Shown: piece after piece, positions 23,224 to 36,252 of the stretch
How the letters are laid out: every line of letters starts with the position of its first letter
Position numbering within the stretch: the first letter of the stretch is position 1
The notes under the pieces: model-generated
What the model saw: the letters and a program-made list of their open reading frames with translations, nothing else
Databases searched by the model: none
What the model was told of the DNA's origin: nothing
Position numbers and translations under genes: made by a program
Source of the DNA: an uncultured Clostridium sp.
GTDB lineage: Bacteria; Bacillota_I; Bacilli_A; RF39; UBA660
Length of the DNA stretch: 36,363 nt
Direction of reading: 5' to 3'
NCBI GenBank assembly: GCA_946402315.1
Contig: CAMIWC010000011.1
Span: 1 to 36,363, forward strand

Positions 23224-23250
23224 TAAAAAAGAAGATTATTTCTAATCTTC
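23224..23250 (-). terminator. Terminator after the S66 peptidase gene
   Basis: GAAGATTA-GAAA-TAATCTTC on the minus strand followed by six T; the upstream arm contains the last codons and the stop of the gene. Confidence 0.8.
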
Positions 23251-24315
23251 AAATATTTTTTCCATAACAGTAATTTTTTTATTATTGTAATCTACTTCAA
23301 CTGTTCTATCATATGGTAATACACATCTTGGATAAGCATGCCCAAAATTAACATTAAATAGCACAGGAGTATCTAAATCACTAAATACTTTTCTATATAC
23401 TTCTTTATATTCATCATAATATGCTTCATCTATAGGTTTACCTACTATAATACCTTTTACTGATTCAAGGATCTTTTTCTCTTTAAATAGTAATAAAGCT
23501 TTTTCTAAATCTTCTGGTTTAATCTTTTCTTCAGATGTTTCAATGAACAGTACTTTTTCTTTCCATTCATCAATAGTAGGTAATATATGATATTTTTCAT
23601 ATACTTCTTTTTCTTCAGGATATCTGCTTCCAGTCATTGTATCATATAAACTTTCTATACAACCACCATACAATTTACCAGTAACTACACCACTACCATT
23701 TAATACTTCATAACCATGAATTTCTTTATTTTCTTTTCTAGGTATTCCTAATTGATCAGGTCCAAAACTTTCTCTATCGTTATACCAAACTGGACTAGAT
23801 ACTATTTCAAATGAATCATCATTTCTAAAATATCTCATAAAACAATCCTTAGTATATGGAAGCATATCTTTATCTAGTTCAGCAATATCTACAATAAAAC
23901 ATGGTCCATAGAAAGTAGATAATCCTAATCTATTTAATAAGATATGATTATTTGTAGTATCAGAAAATCCAGTAAATAGTTTTGGATTATTTTTTACAGC
24001 ATTAATAAATTCCTCATCTTCCATAAGATAAGGTACTAATTTAAACGTATCATCTCCACCAATAGCAGTTATAATTCCTTTGATTTCAGGATCCATAAAA
24101 GCTTGTTTAAGATCAGCTGCTCTTGCTTCTGGGTGATTAAATAAGTAATCCATATCTTTTAAAGCATTAGGCATTAAAACTGGTACTAATCCCATTTCTT
24201 CTAGTCTTTTTAATCCTAAATCTAATTCATGTTTTGCAAAAGGCATTCCAAGCAATCCTCTAGATAAGGATACAATTGCTACTTTATCACCTTTATTTAA
24301 TTTTTTTGGTTTCAT
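23242..24315 (-). CDS. S66-family peptidase (LD-carboxypeptidase/MccF-like)
   Basis: This 357-aa protein of the S66 serine peptidase family includes LD-carboxypeptidases that trim muropeptides and MccF, which cleaves microcin C-type peptide-nucleotides. It begins LNKGDKVAIVSLSRG, has GIITAIGGDDTFKLVPYL where the family loop precedes the nucleophile, and LFTGFSDTTNNH holding the serine (GxSD). VNFGHAYPRCVLPYDR holds the catalytic histidine near the C-terminus. The IGGDD version and the length resemble the MccF branch more than LdcA. No signal peptide is present, so it acts in the cytosol. AGGAGATG precedes the ATG. It is monocistronic, from a perfect extended -10. Confidence 0.9.
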   Translation of the reverse strand: MKPKKLNKGDKVAIVSLSRGLLGMPFAKHELDLGLKRLEEMGLVPVLMPNALKDMDYLFNHPEARAADLKQAFMDPEIKGIITAIGGDDTFKLVPYLMEDEEFINAVKNNPKLFTGFSDTTNNHILLNRLGLSTFYGPCFIVDIAELDKDMLPYTKDCFMRYFRNDDSFEIVSSPVWYNDRESFGPDQLGIPRKENKEIHGYEVLNGSGVVTGKLYGGCIESLYDTMTGSRYPEEKEVYEKYHILPTIDEWKEKVLFIETSEEKIKPEDLEKALLLFKEKKILESVKGIIVGKPIDEAYYDEYKEVYRKVFSDLDTPVLFNVNFGHAYPRCVLPYDRTVEVDYNNKKITVMEKIFED

Positions 24316-24344: not shown

Positions 24345-24374
24345 AAAAAAAGAAGATTATTTATCTTCTTTTTT
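24345..24374 (-). terminator. Terminator of the NlpC-like/esterase operon
   Basis: A 12-bp stem (24346-24357 with 24363-24374, 5-base loop) with GAAGAT/ATCTTC at its core, ending in a T-run on the minus strand. It includes the last codons and the TAA stop of the esterase gene. Confidence 0.85.
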
Positions 24375-25380
24375 GACTTAATAACCAACGTATGTTTTCT
24401 TTAGTATAGGCTTTTTTAGGTGTATCTCCATGACTAACATTTACTGGATAGAAAGTACATTTTCCACCAGCATTAGCAATTGCATCACAATTAGATTTAG
24501 AGCCTGTATAACACCAGTTATCATTTTGATAAGTACCATTAAATACTCTTGTTGGTATATGTTTCCATTTTTCAATATCTAGAGTAGTTCCACCAGTATC
24601 TCCACTCATAATCATAGCAGCTGCAAACTTATTTGGATATTTATTAACTACATTCCAAACACCTATTCCACCTCTACTATGACCAGTCATATATATTCTA
24701 GTAGAATCTATTTTATAATCTTCTTGTACTTTACCTATAACACCCATTAATTTATTAATTACGGAATCAGATTTCCAATCACAAGCACCATTATGGCATA
24801 CTGATCTAGGTGCGATAAAAATAAATTCTTCTCCTACATAAGCATCTCCAGATTTAACAAAAGTAAATGGATGTAACGTCTTAACTAATTCAAAGTCTCC
24901 TGTATCTCCATGTAAGAATATTACTAATGCCATATTAGGTTTAGGATTAGGAGGAATTATTTCAAAATATTCCATACCATTATATTCTTTCTTATGTACA
25001 CCAGGAGAGACAGATATAGATTCCTCTTCTTCTCTTCTTCTTTGTTCTATTTCCCATTCTATTAATTCTTTTTCTCTTAATTTATCAATATTATCTAAAG
25101 TAGCTTGAGCAAAGCACTCATCATAAGTACCAATACCAGTTATACCAAGAATTAGATTTACTAAGAAAGGAGTTACCATTAATAGTCCTGATATAATTAT
25201 TCGTTTCATAATATTATAAGTAGCACTATTTAAATCATCATTATCACCAGTAGTAACTGCTTTAAATAAGTCTATTACTCCTAAAATAATAAATATTATA
25301 GGGACAACAACAAATAACAAATTTTTACCTATTTTAGCATAGTAAAATATAGTTAAAATTTCAGAAGTATCACACGTCAT
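24361..25380 (-). CDS. Membrane-anchored alpha/beta hydrolase (esterase-like)
   Basis: This 339-aa protein has two helices (about 19-40 and 61-82) separated by a short charged loop. A YDEC segment and a charged coiled-coil-like linker (95-120) follow, then an alpha/beta hydrolase domain (about 130-339). That domain has LVIFLHGDTGD as the oxyanion region, the nucleophile S235 in GHSRGG and H317 in VSHGD. It resembles PHB-depolymerase/feruloyl-esterase-type serine esterases. The catalytic acid is not certain. AAAGGAGGGA precedes the ATG, 15 bases after the NlpC-like gene, so they form an operon. The N-terminal module closely matches that of the upstream protein. With this topology the hydrolase should be outside the cell; its substrate is unknown. 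Confidence 0.85.
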   Translation of the reverse strand: MTCDTSEILTIFYYAKIGKNLLFVVVPIIFIILGVIDLFKAVTTGDNDDLNSATYNIMKRIIISGLLMVTPFLVNLILGITGIGTYDECFAQATLDNIDKLREKELIEWEIEQRRREEEESISVSPGVHKKEYNGMEYFEIIPPNPKPNMALVIFLHGDTGDFELVKTLHPFTFVKSGDAYVGEEFIFIAPRSVCHNGACDWKSDSVINKLMGVIGKVQEDYKIDSTRIYMTGHSRGGIGVWNVVNKYPNKFAAAMIMSGDTGGTTLDIEKWKHIPTRVFNGTYQNDNWCYTGSKSNCDAIANAGGKCTFYPVNVSHGDTPKKAYTKENIRWLLSQKRR

Positions 25381-25395
25381 ATTATCCCTCCTTTA

Positions 25396-26967
25396 TTATG
25401 CTTCACAATTTCTAAATAATGATGCTTTATCAGACCATTCTTTTGGTATAGTTATAGCTTTACCACTACTATTTTTATTACAAGCATAATTACTACTATG
25501 AGAATAATATCCCTCCATTTGAGTTAGGGCATAGTATTCATTTTTATATAACCAATCATAAGTATATTTAGCCATACCTACAGGAGTAGTACCTTCATAT
25601 ACATAGATACCATTATTAAATGTACCAATTATTAACATTACATGTGCATTATTAGATATTTGATCTCCCATTTGGGCTTTAGCATACATTTCAAAAGCAA
25701 CATCTTTACTCTTTAATTTAATACATTTCTTTCCATCATAAGAAGCACACACTTTTATTTGAGATGCTTTATTTGTACCTACATAAGACCCAGCAGTATT
25801 TTCCGCTTTAAATCCACCATTATGAATAGACCATCCTACAAAAGAAGCACAATCTAATCCACCATGATCTCCTTTACAAAAAGTTTTTAGTCCAACTTTA
25901 TTAGCTTCTGCTTGAGCACTTGAAGAAAGATTACCCATAGTAATAGGCTTTCCCCAATTAGGATTACTTCCAAAATAAACATTATATCTTTGACTAAAAC
26001 ATTGATGATTACTAATATATGGAATATTAATTCCGTGTTTATATAATAAATAATTAGGTCCAGCTATACCAGCAGTAACTACACCTTCTTTGGTAAATAA
26101 ACCAGCACTTTTAACTGAATTAAAAATAAATGAATCCATATTCTCTATACTATCTGTTTCACCAAATAAATATGAATCTAATTTAGTATATAAAGTATAT
26201 GCGTTTTGATTTCTAGATCTAGGTCCATCATTATATAAATCATCATATGTAATAGTTAAACTAGAAGGTGAACTAAGTCTACCTTGTGAATCTTTTACAT
26301 AAACCAAATATTGTCCTGGAATTTTTGCTATTTCTAAAGTAGTATTATTGATTAGAACCCATCTATCATCATTAATACTAGGTACATTAGAATTAGTTGC
26401 GAAATAATATCCTGCAATATCCGAATCACCTTTTCTTGCTTTAACGGTTACAAAAGCAGATTTATGATCAACTGATACTATAGATGGTGCTCCTTCTTCT
26501 TCTTCAATTTCTGGAGGATCTATATCGGGTGGTAATTCAGGTATCTCTACATCCAAATCTACTTCCTCAGGATCTGTTAATTCTACTTCACATTTAGATG
26601 AATTAGCAATACATTCAGAATATTCATTCCAGTTAGGACCAATTCTAATAATAGATAGTAGTAAAGACAACATTATTGGTAAAAAGAATATTGCTACGGC
26701 AGCTACTATTCTAATAGATGATGTTTTAATTAAATTATATAATTCACTCTCATCTTTATAAGAAACCATCTTAAAAATATCTATACCTATTTTCACTATT
26801 AATACAGCCGGAACAATAATTCTAATTAATTGAAGAGCTACACTTACTACATATAAGAAATGTAGTTTTAGTTTACCATTATTTTCTTCATCTTCAGCAA
26901 AAACTAACATAATAGGATATAAATATAAAAACAATGATAATAATAAATATTTTTTCTTTATTCTCAT
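25396..26967 (-). CDS. Membrane-anchored NlpC/P60-like hydrolase with Ig-like domain
   Basis: This 523-aa protein has an N-terminal signal-like helix (7-24), two more helices (about 45-66 and 86-108) and a YSEC segment. A Pro/Glu/Asp-rich linker (127-160) and an Ig- or fibronectin-like beta domain (about 160-242) follow. The C-terminal domain has C373 in GGLDCASFVGWS and H442 in NNAHVMLIIG, the Cys-His pair of NlpC/P60-type peptidoglycan amidases. Many cysteines in the outer part suggest disulfides. The start at 26967 is chosen because AGGTGA is five bases upstream; an in-frame GTG at 26976 lies within that Shine-Dalgarno. It is the first gene of an operon with the esterase-like protein. It probably cleaves peptidoglycan stems; self or foreign target is unknown. 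Confidence 0.85.
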   Translation of the reverse strand: MRIKKKYLLLSLFLYLYPIMLVFAEDEENNGKLKLHFLYVVSVALQLIRIIVPAVLIVKIGIDIFKMVSYKDESELYNLIKTSSIRIVAAVAIFFLPIMLSLLLSIIRIGPNWNEYSECIANSSKCEVELTDPEEVDLDVEIPELPPDIDPPEIEEEEGAPSIVSVDHKSAFVTVKARKGDSDIAGYYFATNSNVPSINDDRWVLINNTTLEIAKIPGQYLVYVKDSQGRLSSPSSLTITYDDLYNDGPRSRNQNAYTLYTKLDSYLFGETDSIENMDSFIFNSVKSAGLFTKEGVVTAGIAGPNYLLYKHGINIPYISNHQCFSQRYNVYFGSNPNWGKPITMGNLSSSAQAEANKVGLKTFCKGDHGGLDCASFVGWSIHNGGFKAENTAGSYVGTNKASQIKVCASYDGKKCIKLKSKDVAFEMYAKAQMGDQISNNAHVMLIIGTFNNGIYVYEGTTPVGMAKYTYDWLYKNEYYALTQMEGYYSHSSNYACNKNSSGKAITIPKEWSDKASLFRNCEA

Positions 26968-26994: not shown

Positions 26995-27017
26995 TAAAAA
27001 AGGATTTAACATCCTTT
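26995..27017 (-). terminator. Terminator after the 19-codon ORF and rarA
   Basis: AAAGGAT-GTTAA-ATCCTTT on the minus strand followed by TTTTT. The upstream arm contains the last codons and the loop the TAA stop of the 19-codon ORF. Confidence 0.8.
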
Positions 27018-27065
27018 CATTGCGTCTATTCTTTGTATTCCTATTTTCTTTTCCTTTTCAGCCAT
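27006..27065 (-). CDS. Possible 19-aa small protein downstream of rarA
   Basis: ATG at 27065 has an excellent Shine-Dalgarno (GGGAGG, five bases upstream) and reads MAEKEKKIGIQRIDAMKGC before TAA. It begins 25 bases after the rarA stop and its stop sits in the loop of a strong terminator, so it is the last cistron of the rarA transcript. The peptide is basic with a charged N-terminus and a single C-terminal cysteine; it has no helix long enough to cross the membrane. No family is recognised. It could be a true microprotein or the left-over start of a lost gene. Confidence 0.5.
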   Translation of the reverse strand: MAEKEKKIGIQRIDAMKGC

Positions 27066-27090
27066 AAAAACCTCCCTAAGTCAAATACAA

Positions 27091-33754: not shown

Positions 33755-33775
33755 AAAAAGAAGTATTGCTACTCC
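33755..33775 (-). terminator. Terminator after the zinc-ribbon repeat nuclease gene
   Basis: GGAGTA-GCAA-TACTTC on the minus strand (6 bp with one G-T pair) followed by TTTTT. The upstream arm contains the TAG stop codon. Confidence 0.65.
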
Positions 33776-36252
33776 TTTGTCTTACAAATTGGACATTTTG
33801 CGCCTCTATTGCGTGCCCTAATTTCTGCATTCCATTCGTGACCTTTGTCACATTTCCACCATACTTGCTTTCCACTATTTGCAGTAAACATTGTTGGCAT
33901 TAAATCATTGTTTTTTTCATAATTCCACTCTTTTGCAAGTTTTGGATTAGCGGTTGCAAGATCATTATATCCTTCAAGAACTTTAGCATTTGAGCAAATT
34001 GGACATCTTGTTCCTATAGTTCTATTATGAATACTTGTCTGCCACTCATGCCCTTTTTCGCATTTCCACCATACCTTTTTTTTGCTTCCTGCTGTAAACA
34101 TATCAGGTTTTAGATTTCCATTTCTATCATTATTCCACTCTACTACAAGTAATGGATTAGTTGTTGCTAAATCATTATAACCTTTTAATACTTGTTTATT
34201 AGAACATATCGGACATCCGACTCCTCTATTTCGCGATTTTATTCTAGAATACCATTCATGTCCTCTTTCACATTTCCACCATACTTTTTTCTCTGTTGTT
34301 GCTGTAACCATGTCTGGTTTTAAACTAATATTTTTTTCATAATTCCATTCTTTGGATAATTCTGGATTAACTGTTGCAAGATCATTATATCCTTTTAAAA
34401 CTTGTTTATTAGCACATATAGGGCATCCGTTTCCTTGGTTTCGACTATTTACACTTGATTCCCATTCATGTCCTCTTTCACATCTCCACCATACTTTTTT
34501 CCCACTTGTTGCTTTTAATTTTGTTGGTTCAATACTAATATTTCTTTCATAATTCCATTCTTTTGCTAGCTCTGGATTAACTGTTACAAGATCATTATAT
34601 CCTTTTAATATTTGCATATTAGCACATATAGGGCAACCTGTTTTTCCATATTTTCGATTACTAATGGTTGCTTGCCATTCGTGACCTTTGTCACATTTCC
34701 ACCATACTTTTTGTATACTGCCTGAAGTAACCATATCCGGTCTTAACTCTCCATTCTTTGGATAATTCCATTCCTTTGCTAGCTCTGGATTAACTGTTAC
34801 AAGATCATTATATCCTTTTAATAATTGTTGCCCAGAACAAAATGGACATCCAGTTCCATTATTTCGACTGCTTATACTTGTTTGCCACTCATGTCCTTTA
34901 GGGCAAACCCACCATACTTTTTTATTACTATTTGACATAACCATATCGGGCTTTAAATTTCCATTTTTCTCATAATTCCATTCTTTTGCTAGTTCTGGAT
35001 TATTATTTTGCAATGATTGCTCTTTTTGACTTAGAATAAATGTTGAATATATGTCAGTTCTATCCTTCTTTAAATCAATATTTAATTTTTTACCTAGAAA
35101 ACTAATTATTTTTTTTGTAACTTCTTCAATACTAGAATCAGATCCTGTACAATAACAAATTTTTAAATAATCATTTTCAGTCCAAGGACAATTTTTATCT
35201 TCTCTAACTCTAAAAAGAACTATCTTGTTTTCTTTACAAATATTATTTTTTCTTTCATCTCTTTTTTTATCTTTATGCCAGAAAATACCATCATATTCAA
35301 TCGCAAATCTTAACGAAGGTATATATATATCTAATTCTATATCTAAATGCCTATCTCCGTTAATAGCATCCGGAAATAATTTTTTTATATAATAATAAAT
35401 AGCTTGTTCAGGGAAAGATGTTTGTAATTCTTTTGTACAAATAGGACATTTTGACCCACTAGCATTTCTACCAACAATACTTACTTGCCATTCGTGACCT
35501 TTGTCACATCTCCACCATACTTTTTTATTACTATTTGATGTGACCATATCTGGTTTTAGATTTCCATTTTTTTCATAATTCCATTCTTTTGCTAATTCTG
35601 GATTAACTGTTACAAGATCATTGTACCCTTTTAAGACATTCCTATTTAAACATATAGGGCAACCAGAACCATTATTTCTATCATATATGCTTATTTCCCA
35701 TTCGTGACCTTTGTCACATCTCCACCATACTTTTTTATTACTATTTGATGTGACCATATCTGGTTTTAGATTTCCATTTTTTTTGAAATTCCATTCTTTT
35801 GCAAGTTTTGGATTTATCGTTAATAAATCATTATATCCTTTTAAAGCTAATCTATTGGAACATATAGGACAGCCAGAGCCATTATTTCTATGGTGAATAC
35901 TTGCTTGCCACTCATGTCCTTTAGGGCAAACCCACCATACTTTTTTATGCGAACCATATGAAACCATTGTTGGATTAAAATCTTTGTTCTTGGAATAGTT
36001 CCATTCTTTCGTAAGTTCTGGATTAGTTGTTGCTAAATCATTATATCCTACTAAAATTATTTTATTAGAACATATTGGGCAACTATTTTTCTTCCTTGAA
36101 TGAATTGTTGCTTGCCACTCATGCCCTTTTTCGCATTTCCACCACACTTTTTTATTAGATCCTAGAGTGATTTTATTTATATCAACATCTTGATTTTTTG
36201 AATAGTTCCATTCTTCTTTTAATGTTAAATTATTAATTAATAAATCAGACAA
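33769..36252 (-). CDS. Ten zinc-ribbon repeats with an embedded PD-(D/E)XK nuclease-like domain
   Basis: This 827-aa protein has four zinc-ribbon repeats (1-67, 68-137, 138-207, 208-277), then an inserted domain (about 278-416), then six more repeats (417-827). Each repeat is about 70 residues with the pattern NPELAKEWN...KKVWWxCxxGHEW...CPIC, the DUF4379-type probable zinc ribbon. The insert begins TSFPEQAIYYYIKKLFPDA and has LDIELDIYIPSLRFAIEYDG with WH following, which resembles the Vsr/DUF559-like PD-(D/E)XK fold; D308, E319 and D321 are candidate metal ligands. It starts with TTG at 36252, seven bases after AAAGGAG. A DNA-targeting or defence role is plausible but inferred. Its DNA repeats are very similar, so repeat number may vary. 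Confidence 0.88.
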   Translation of the reverse strand: MSDLLINNLTLKEEWNYSKNQDVDINKITLGSNKKVWWKCEKGHEWQATIHSRKKNSCPICSNKIILVGYNDLATTNPELTKEWNYSKNKDFNPTMVSYGSHKKVWWVCPKGHEWQASIHHRNNGSGCPICSNRLALKGYNDLLTINPKLAKEWNFKKNGNLKPDMVTSNSNKKVWWRCDKGHEWEISIYDRNNGSGCPICLNRNVLKGYNDLVTVNPELAKEWNYEKNGNLKPDMVTSNSNKKVWWRCDKGHEWQVSIVGRNASGSKCPICTKELQTSFPEQAIYYYIKKLFPDAINGDRHLDIELDIYIPSLRFAIEYDGIFWHKDKKRDERKNNICKENKIVLFRVREDKNCPWTENDYLKICYCTGSDSSIEEVTKKIISFLGKKLNIDLKKDRTDIYSTFILSQKEQSLQNNNPELAKEWNYEKNGNLKPDMVMSNSNKKVWWVCPKGHEWQTSISSRNNGTGCPFCSGQQLLKGYNDLVTVNPELAKEWNYPKNGELRPDMVTSGSIQKVWWKCDKGHEWQATISNRKYGKTGCPICANMQILKGYNDLVTVNPELAKEWNYERNISIEPTKLKATSGKKVWWRCERGHEWESSVNSRNQGNGCPICANKQVLKGYNDLATVNPELSKEWNYEKNISLKPDMVTATTEKKVWWKCERGHEWYSRIKSRNRGVGCPICSNKQVLKGYNDLATTNPLLVVEWNNDRNGNLKPDMFTAGSKKKVWWKCEKGHEWQTSIHNRTIGTRCPICSNAKVLEGYNDLATANPKLAKEWNYEKNNDLMPTMFTANSGKQVWWKCDKGHEWNAEIRARNRGAKCPICKTKE
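35488..35573. repeat. 86-bp perfect repeat inside the zinc-ribbon gene, copy 1
   Basis: It is identical to 35698-35783, exactly 210 bases (70 codons) away. It covers the W-W-x-C-x-x-G-H-E-W part of repeats 3 and 4, and points to recent duplication or gene conversion. Confidence 0.9.
35698..35783. repeat. 86-bp perfect repeat inside the zinc-ribbon gene, copy 2
   Basis: Second copy of the 86-bp repeat at 35488-35573. It lies in repeat 3 of the protein. Confidence 0.9.

Follow-up and report, generated by a model that had tools for sequence, protein, structure and literature searches.

The type IV secretion systems (T4SSs) of Patescibacteria contain VirB2-like pilins (PF18895), the genes of which occur in arrays of 2–11 (PMC12102498). 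In Xanthomonas and Stenotrophomonas a bacteria-killing T4SS is known, whose X-Tfe effectors break down membranes and peptidoglycan and have X-Tfi lipoprotein inhibitors encoded beside them (PMC6536674), and the LXG toxins of Firmicutes were taken as the polymorphic toxin system for comparison (PMC5555719). The locus described here lies on a 36,363-nucleotide stretch of DNA from an uncultured Clostridium sp. (contig CAMIWC010000011.1), referred to below as the window. Two adjacent genes of the window encode an esterase and an NlpC/P60-type enzyme which share an N-terminal two-helix module (Table 1), and this module was found to be homologous to a pilin-like protein of the T4SS of the same genome. 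The identity of the module and its T4SS origin are regarded as highly probable.

The module resembles the VirB2/TrbC-like pilins in that it is a two-helix hairpin found beside VirB6, PrgI and VirB4 of a relaxase-less chromosomal T4SS, with several copies per genome; it differs from them in that the pilin domain carries large C-terminal enzymes or N-terminal ectodomains. No description of pilin–enzyme fusions was found in the literature searched, which covers part of the published work. As with the Xanthomonas system, there is a chromosomal T4SS with scattered enzyme genes, predicted envelope targets and adjacent lipoproteins, here putative inhibitors. The X-Tfe effectors have a C-terminal XVIPCD bound by VirD4 and belong to a machine with the diderm VirB7–VirB10 core, in contrast to the N-terminal pilin domain and Bacilli host seen here; as the window-type fusions end in catalytic domains at their C-termini, they were not classed as X-Tfe. 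A constant N-terminal trafficking-type domain, variable enzymatic C-termini and a co-varying adjacent gene are shared with the polymorphic toxins, LXG included, but the N-terminal domain and the secretion machine are different from those of LXG toxins, nearly all of the enzymes are predicted envelope hydrolases and no orphan partners were seen.

That the N-termini of the two adjacent enzymes align over two helices had been claimed in an earlier sequence-only reading of the window, and they are indeed homologous. BLASTP aligned them with 43.1 bits and 28/94 identities (single-comparison E of 7e-12), and none of 1000 shuffles preserving the hydrophobic/polar pattern scored as high as the real pair (109 against a mean of 36.6, standard deviation 8.1, z of 9.0). 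As these shuffles keep the pattern, bare membrane-helix character cannot account for the alignment score. The outer domains are unrelated, also as first described, with an alpha/beta hydrolase in one protein and a putative FN3-like domain plus an NlpC/P60-type domain in the other. Against the Pfam family T4SS_pilin (PF18895) the window modules gave weak matches of 15.5 and 12.6 bits, under the cut-off of 26.6, which is exceeded by fusions in relatives (L103, 29.2 bits; L098, 28.3 bits). The only invariant residues in 33 aligned fusions are C3, P27, P71 and C89, which places a cysteine at each hairpin end and one proline in each helix; this arrangement is compatible with an external position of both ends, which a disulfide might link. 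The Glu/Lys/Arg-rich linker behind the module is also present in relatives. A search of PDB sequences with the module profile returned no credible match, and a plasmid search with the esterase module returned none.

The source genome (961,591 bases, 74% complete) was searched with PF18895 and then with an alignment of its matches. The profile matched both window N-termini significantly and found seven module proteins: four N-terminal fusions (the NlpC-type protein and three esterases), two standalone genes of about 100–130 amino acids (aa), and one secreted protein with a C-terminal module, encoded immediately upstream of a second VirB6-like gene. A PF18895 match at C9 (L004) was dropped, being an HdeD-like multi-pass protein. 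One standalone gene (C2:34776) is the first gene of the T4SS operon of this genome, which also contains TrbL/VirB6-like, PrgI-like, VirB4-like, SpoIID plus glucosaminidase, lipoprotein and VirD4-like genes. This type of VirB4 occurs in 32/36 genomes sampled from a family which we take to belong to the order RF39 or a neighbouring one, mostly with 67–97% identity. The TrbC/VirB2-like layout that had been noted for the window proteins is borne out by this homology to the gene heading the operon and by linkage to virB4 in 73 of the 75 loci counted, each with at least 3 kb of upstream sequence. These 73 have 1–3 module genes upstream, and all 137 such genes are on the virB4 strand, 104 being standalone and 33 having a C-terminal module, with no N-terminal module among them. 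The standalone form within the T4SS operon and the linkage to virB4 together indicate that the module is a pilin-type T4SS subunit to which the window enzymes have become fused: the standalone homologue is a small hairpin gene near VirB6 and VirB4, and the window fusions carry the homologous domain at a different location.

No PF03432 relaxase was matched in the source genome (74% complete) or in 18/22 family genomes, other relaxase families lying outside this search, so that on the PF03432 search the relaxase by which a conjugative T4SS is recognized is missing. It should be noted that the metagenome-assembled genomes (MAGs) are incomplete and fragmented, and that absences of a relaxase, or of the partner genes described below, may reflect gaps. 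A relaxase match was found close to an additional, divergent VirB4 of about 27% identity in two genomes (G004:C15:109673-114309 and G016:C32:6237-10883); these probably represent integrative conjugative elements apart from the core T4SS.

Distribution was scanned with a seven-sequence module profile, with E 1e-7 used for wider draws from the class and the phylum. The module is present in 36/36 sampled family genomes at 1 to 17 copies each. In the class draw 50/54 family genomes matched and 0 of about 341 others, and in the phylum draw 18/19 family genomes matched and 0 of about 373 others. The named relatives found through virB4 are gut and rumen MAGs labelled as Bacilli, Erysipelotrichaceae, Tenericutes, Candidatus Onthousia and Candidatus Faecimonas. 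The module is plentiful in relatives, with varied C-terminal domains behind it, and in these draws is confined to the one family.

About 80 long module proteins were found in the relatives examined, and those with an N-terminal module carry at least 15 kinds of catalytic domain, namely CHAP, VanY/M15, C39-like, SleB-like, esterase, SGNH/GDSL, YkuD, NlpC/P60, GH99, GDPD, S11, phage tail lysozyme, glucosaminidase, GH24 and M23, plus some unassigned, where SleB-like is a reading of the sequence without a Pfam match and some other names also come from weak similarity. Nearly all of these domains are expected, judging from sequence, to act on peptidoglycan or on other envelope polymers or lipids. 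The earlier suggestion of a reusable display or assembly module is supported by this range of C-terminal enzymes, which would be its cargo. A single cluster of 42 'esterase' fusions was rejected as an artefact of the common charged linker, and the linker-trimmed set splits into many enzyme classes. Up to 14 different fusions are present in one 1.2-Mb genome. Exchange of domains at one locus, as in polymorphic toxins, was observed in a slot behind a CobW-type GTPase gene which is 72–90% identical between genomes: the module enzyme in this slot is an esterase in the source genome (C5:41277), a VanY enzyme in G006 and a SleB-like enzyme in G001, G004 and G007. The window locus is variable as well, since in G006 the esterase lies behind rarA and the NlpC gene is missing, and in G002 neither gene is present. 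The esterase has diverged fast, with 60% identity to its G006 counterpart, compared to 93% for RarA, 97% for VirB4 and 77% for the T4SS pilin. In G006 four module enzymes of the signal-peptide type are also encoded in tandem, 3–17 bp apart (L079:2255-7936, contig G006:C1), with near-identical N-termini and differing C-termini (SGNH, C39-like and two unassigned).

The esterase was modelled by AlphaFold with a mean predicted local distance difference test score (pLDDT) of 86 as a hairpin, a helical linker and an alpha/beta hydrolase domain (helix limits in Table 1). Foldseek matched the model to the esterases 3doh and 3wyd, and the Pfam family Peptidase_S9 was matched with 23.5 bits (cut-off 22.6); with the nucleophile motif GHSRGG (Table 1), both fold and motif of an alpha/beta hydrolase are present. 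The score against the NCBIfam polyhydroxyalkanoate (PHA) depolymerase model did not reach the cut-off (51 vs 150). For the second enzyme, the label 'NlpC/P60' given in the sequence-only reading holds in part. The protein itself has no Pfam match, PF00877 included, and Foldseek of its model gave only weak FN3/Ig-like matches, none below E 0.001. The label is favoured by conserved cysteine and histidine motifs and by PF00877-matching homologues, such as L190 (phmmer E 3e-11), which reaches 26.5 bits, above the PF00877 cut-off. Hydrolases homologous to this catalytic region follow virB4 in the T4SS operons of several relatives (L190, L175 and L187), and the closest relative, 55% identical, is a module-less lipoprotein encoded after a virB4-like gene in G174 (L208). 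By both its module and its catalytic domain, this enzyme is therefore tied to the T4SS twice. A phage search with the protein returned no match.

Many of the fusions are accompanied by a second gene. A partner was defined as a protein of 150–300 aa with an N-terminal membrane anchor or lipobox, encoded at most 60 bp after the fusion gene. Fusions without a signal peptide have a partner next door in 29/46 cases, compared to 11/279 control genes (Fisher p 1e-20), and the 29/46 count is conservative as several partners are upstream or have over-long open reading frame (ORF) starts. The partner type seen most frequently is a lipoprotein that has a membrane helix at its C-terminus. In a small sample of 20, with some rows being near-copies, enzyme class changed 5 times on the partner tree, the minimum possible, vs 7 times on the module tree and a shuffled mean of 11.3, which shows that enzyme class is followed more closely by the partners than by the modules. 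CHAP partners all cluster together (93/97) despite different slots and gene orders. Close relatives of the partner lipoprotein in the genus were beside a module enzyme in 20/20 cases, and more distant ones were found within T4SS operons, for example flanking the NlpC/P60 hydrolase on both sides in L190. No direct profile link was found from the partner lipoproteins to the T4SS-operon lipoprotein of the source genome; the G006 orthologue of the latter was found from the partner lipoproteins with E 3.5e-14. A role of the partner as inhibitor of T4SS-linked hydrolases would fit these T4SS-operon relatives, and an accessory factor would fit too.

It is proposed that the shared N-termini are VirB2-type subunit domains belonging to the chromosomal, relaxase-less T4SS of the family, each forming a two-helix membrane hairpin with both ends predicted to lie outside. 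On its outer C-terminus, by way of the charged helical linker, this pilin domain would bear interchangeable envelope-degrading enzymes. Once the fusions are inserted in the membrane, the T4SS would display them, build them in or hand them on. The hydrolase could thereby attack the envelope of bacteria in contact, and the lipoprotein or membrane-anchored protein encoded next to it would inhibit the matching enzyme on the surface of the producer. As a whole, this explanation of pilin-anchored, T4SS-linked hydrolases with cognate inhibitors is considered evenly poised between right and wrong; that antagonism is the purpose may be placed at or slightly under that level. A previously undescribed system of contact-dependent antagonism or predation, combining a relaxase-less T4SS, a pilin-carried arsenal of swappable envelope enzymes and T4SS-derived lipoprotein immunity, is put forward tentatively.

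If correct, this would extend bacteria-killing T4SSs beyond Proteobacteria, make a secretion pilin a carrier of enzymes in a manner comparable to the evolved Hcp and VgrG of type VI secretion systems, and provide a ready collection of enzyme–inhibitor pairs. These gut Bacilli with genomes of about 1 Mb keep a relaxase-less T4SS in nearly every genome, and the fusions would give a directly testable answer to what it carries. A similar question applies to the relaxase-less T4SSs of Patescibacteria (PMC12102498).

Several points weigh against the proposal. Where a signal peptide or some other extension precedes the module, the fusions have no partner (0/11), and the window pair, of which one member is of the signal-peptide type and one is not, has no lipoprotein partner. 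Self-protection for these two genes would then be either needless or supplied elsewhere, and antagonism is a less likely reading here than in their relatives. Among the 20 close relatives of the partner in the genus no orphan gene was found, although polymorphic toxin systems often contain orphan immunity genes, and the ancestry of the partner among T4SS lipoproteins would speak for an accessory role just as much as for immunity. The N-terminal fusions are scattered, with none inside T4SS operons in the survey upstream of virB4. The family also has peptidoglycan genes (MraY in 22/24, penicillin-binding proteins in 24/24). Wall-less hosts, in which the hydrolases could act on others only, are ruled out by these genes. 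Wall hydrolases would require self-protection in a family that makes peptidoglycan, and could equally serve its own wall, which keeps a housekeeping role alive.

Such a role belongs to the first alternative, considered rather unlikely, in which the module is a mere membrane anchor derived from a T4SS pilin that tethers hydrolases to the surface of the producer to maintain the wall, scavenge muropeptides or digest polymers, with the partner lipoprotein as regulator. Related orders such as RF39 have been reported to be without the usual sortase gene and may depend on scavenged muropeptides (PMC10868615), and both traits would suit surface tethering, as do the peptidoglycan genes and the location of N-terminal fusions outside T4SS operons. 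Enzymes of housekeeping type are present (VanY, S11, L,D-transpeptidase and SleB-like), and the window pair adjoins an S66 LD-carboxypeptidase. This alternative is opposed by the number of fusions in a single 1.2-Mb genome, by exchange within one slot and by the low identity of the esterase relative to RarA and VirB4, all unusual for housekeeping wall enzymes, and by partner families that follow enzyme class.

The fusions could also be minor pilins or VirB1-like hydrolases which open the wall of the producer or the target for the T4SS without being toxins, and this is considered decidedly unlikely. The catalytic domain of the window NlpC enzyme resembles VirB1-type hydrolases through its homology to those encoded after virB4 in relatives, a partner-homologous lipoprotein follows such hydrolases in the T4SS operon, and the C-terminal-module proteins are located in T4SS operons. 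The hydrolases of the relatives, unlike the window enzyme, have other N-terminal regions and are sited in the T4SS operon itself. Esterase, SGNH, GDPD and GH99 domains would not be needed for opening peptidoglycan, and the T4SS operon already has a hydrolase of its own. A chance similarity between hydrophobic helices is extremely unlikely, since, even though membrane helices enter every comparison and the Pfam matches of the window modules are under the cut-off, the pattern-preserving shuffles and the invariant Cys, Pro, Pro and Cys speak against it, and the profile finds seven proteins in the source genome but, across about 700 non-family genomes rich in membrane proteins, gives no match at E 1e-7.

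With regard to transcription, the NlpC-type gene is followed on the minus strand by the esterase gene after a gap of 15 bp and by the S66 LD-carboxypeptidase gene after a further 45 bp. The ATG at 26967, with AGGTG 8 bp upstream, is most likely the start of the NlpC-type gene, as had also been chosen in the sequence-only reading, and the ribosome site of the esterase (GGAGG) sits inside the 15-bp gap. A terminator-like hairpin after rarA suggests that the pair begins its own transcription unit; it was absent from the listing of a consensus terminator scan. The expectation that both enzymes are made from one operon is likely to be right, given the short gap, the separate Shine-Dalgarno sites and the hairpin upstream of the first gene, and the S66 gene is possibly the third of the unit.

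Table 1. Features of the module-enzyme locus, in window coordinates.
Feature	Position	Strand	Details
Peptidase S66 (LD-carboxypeptidase)	23242..24315	(-)	45 bp downstream of esterase
Module esterase	24361..25380	(-)	339 aa; alpha/beta hydrolase, putatively of polyhydroxybutyrate (PHB)-depolymerase/feruloyl-esterase type
Esterase catalytic domain	24361..24998	(-)	nucleophile motif GHSRGG 24684-24667; His motif SHGDT 24435-24421
Charged helical linker	24999..25089	(-)	residues 98-127; model helix 95-118
T4SS-pilin-like two-helix module, esterase	25090..25377	(-)	residues 2-97; Cys3 and Cys89 at ends; model helices 6-44, 47-81
NlpC/P60-type module enzyme	25396..26967	(-)	523 aa from ATG 26967; 526 aa with GTG 26976
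NlpC/P60-type catalytic region, borders approximate	25476..25899	(-)	Cys in GLDCASF 25860-25840; His in NAHVMLI 25650-25630
FN3-like beta domain	26251..26484	(-)	about residues 165-242; AlphaFold pLDDT about 90 or more
T4SS-pilin-like two-helix module, NlpC-type protein	26587..26880	(-)	residues 33-130; model helices 35-72, 76-110, moderate to low confidence
Signal-peptide-like N-terminus (MRIKKKYLLLSLFLYLYPIMLVFA) before module	26896..26967	(-)	putative, from sequence pattern
Terminator-like hairpin and T run, AAAGGAT-GTTAA-ATCCTTT-TTT	26996..27020	(-)	between rarA and NlpC-type gene

A tiny ORF (MAEKEKKIGIQRIDAMKGC; window 26998-27066, minus strand) with a strong ribosome-binding site was also noted between rarA and the NlpC-type gene, terminating within the terminator-like hairpin.

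Some further features were seen around the T4SS genes. In the T4SS operon of the source genome (L009:4777-14960; C2:34776-44959) VirB4 is split into genes of 194 and 597 aa, and the split is also present in G006 and G007. The protein with the C-terminal module (L010:8142-12066; C2:76141-80065) consists of a secreted domain of about 300 aa and the module, followed by the second VirB6-like protein of 892 aa; as it is only 33% identical to the comparable G006 protein, it is possibly an adhesin-like pilin. In G007 the T4SS operon adjoins a standalone module gene and Tad-type pilus genes in one contiguous block (L205, G007:C7:26000-42000), and in the source genome Tad-type pilus genes are located about 12 kb from the T4SS operon (L008, C2:15602-23193), making a joint Tad/T4SS machine possible. 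Near this Tad locus (L022:4596-12504; C2:4596-12504) there are two paralogous secreted proteins of about 1040 aa, each preceded by a secreted protein of about 250 aa. Elsewhere in the window (33769-36252, minus strand), an 827-aa protein with many zinc-ribbon-like repeats (WWKCxxGHEWxxxxxxR...CPIC) and a nuclease-like segment in its middle is encoded.

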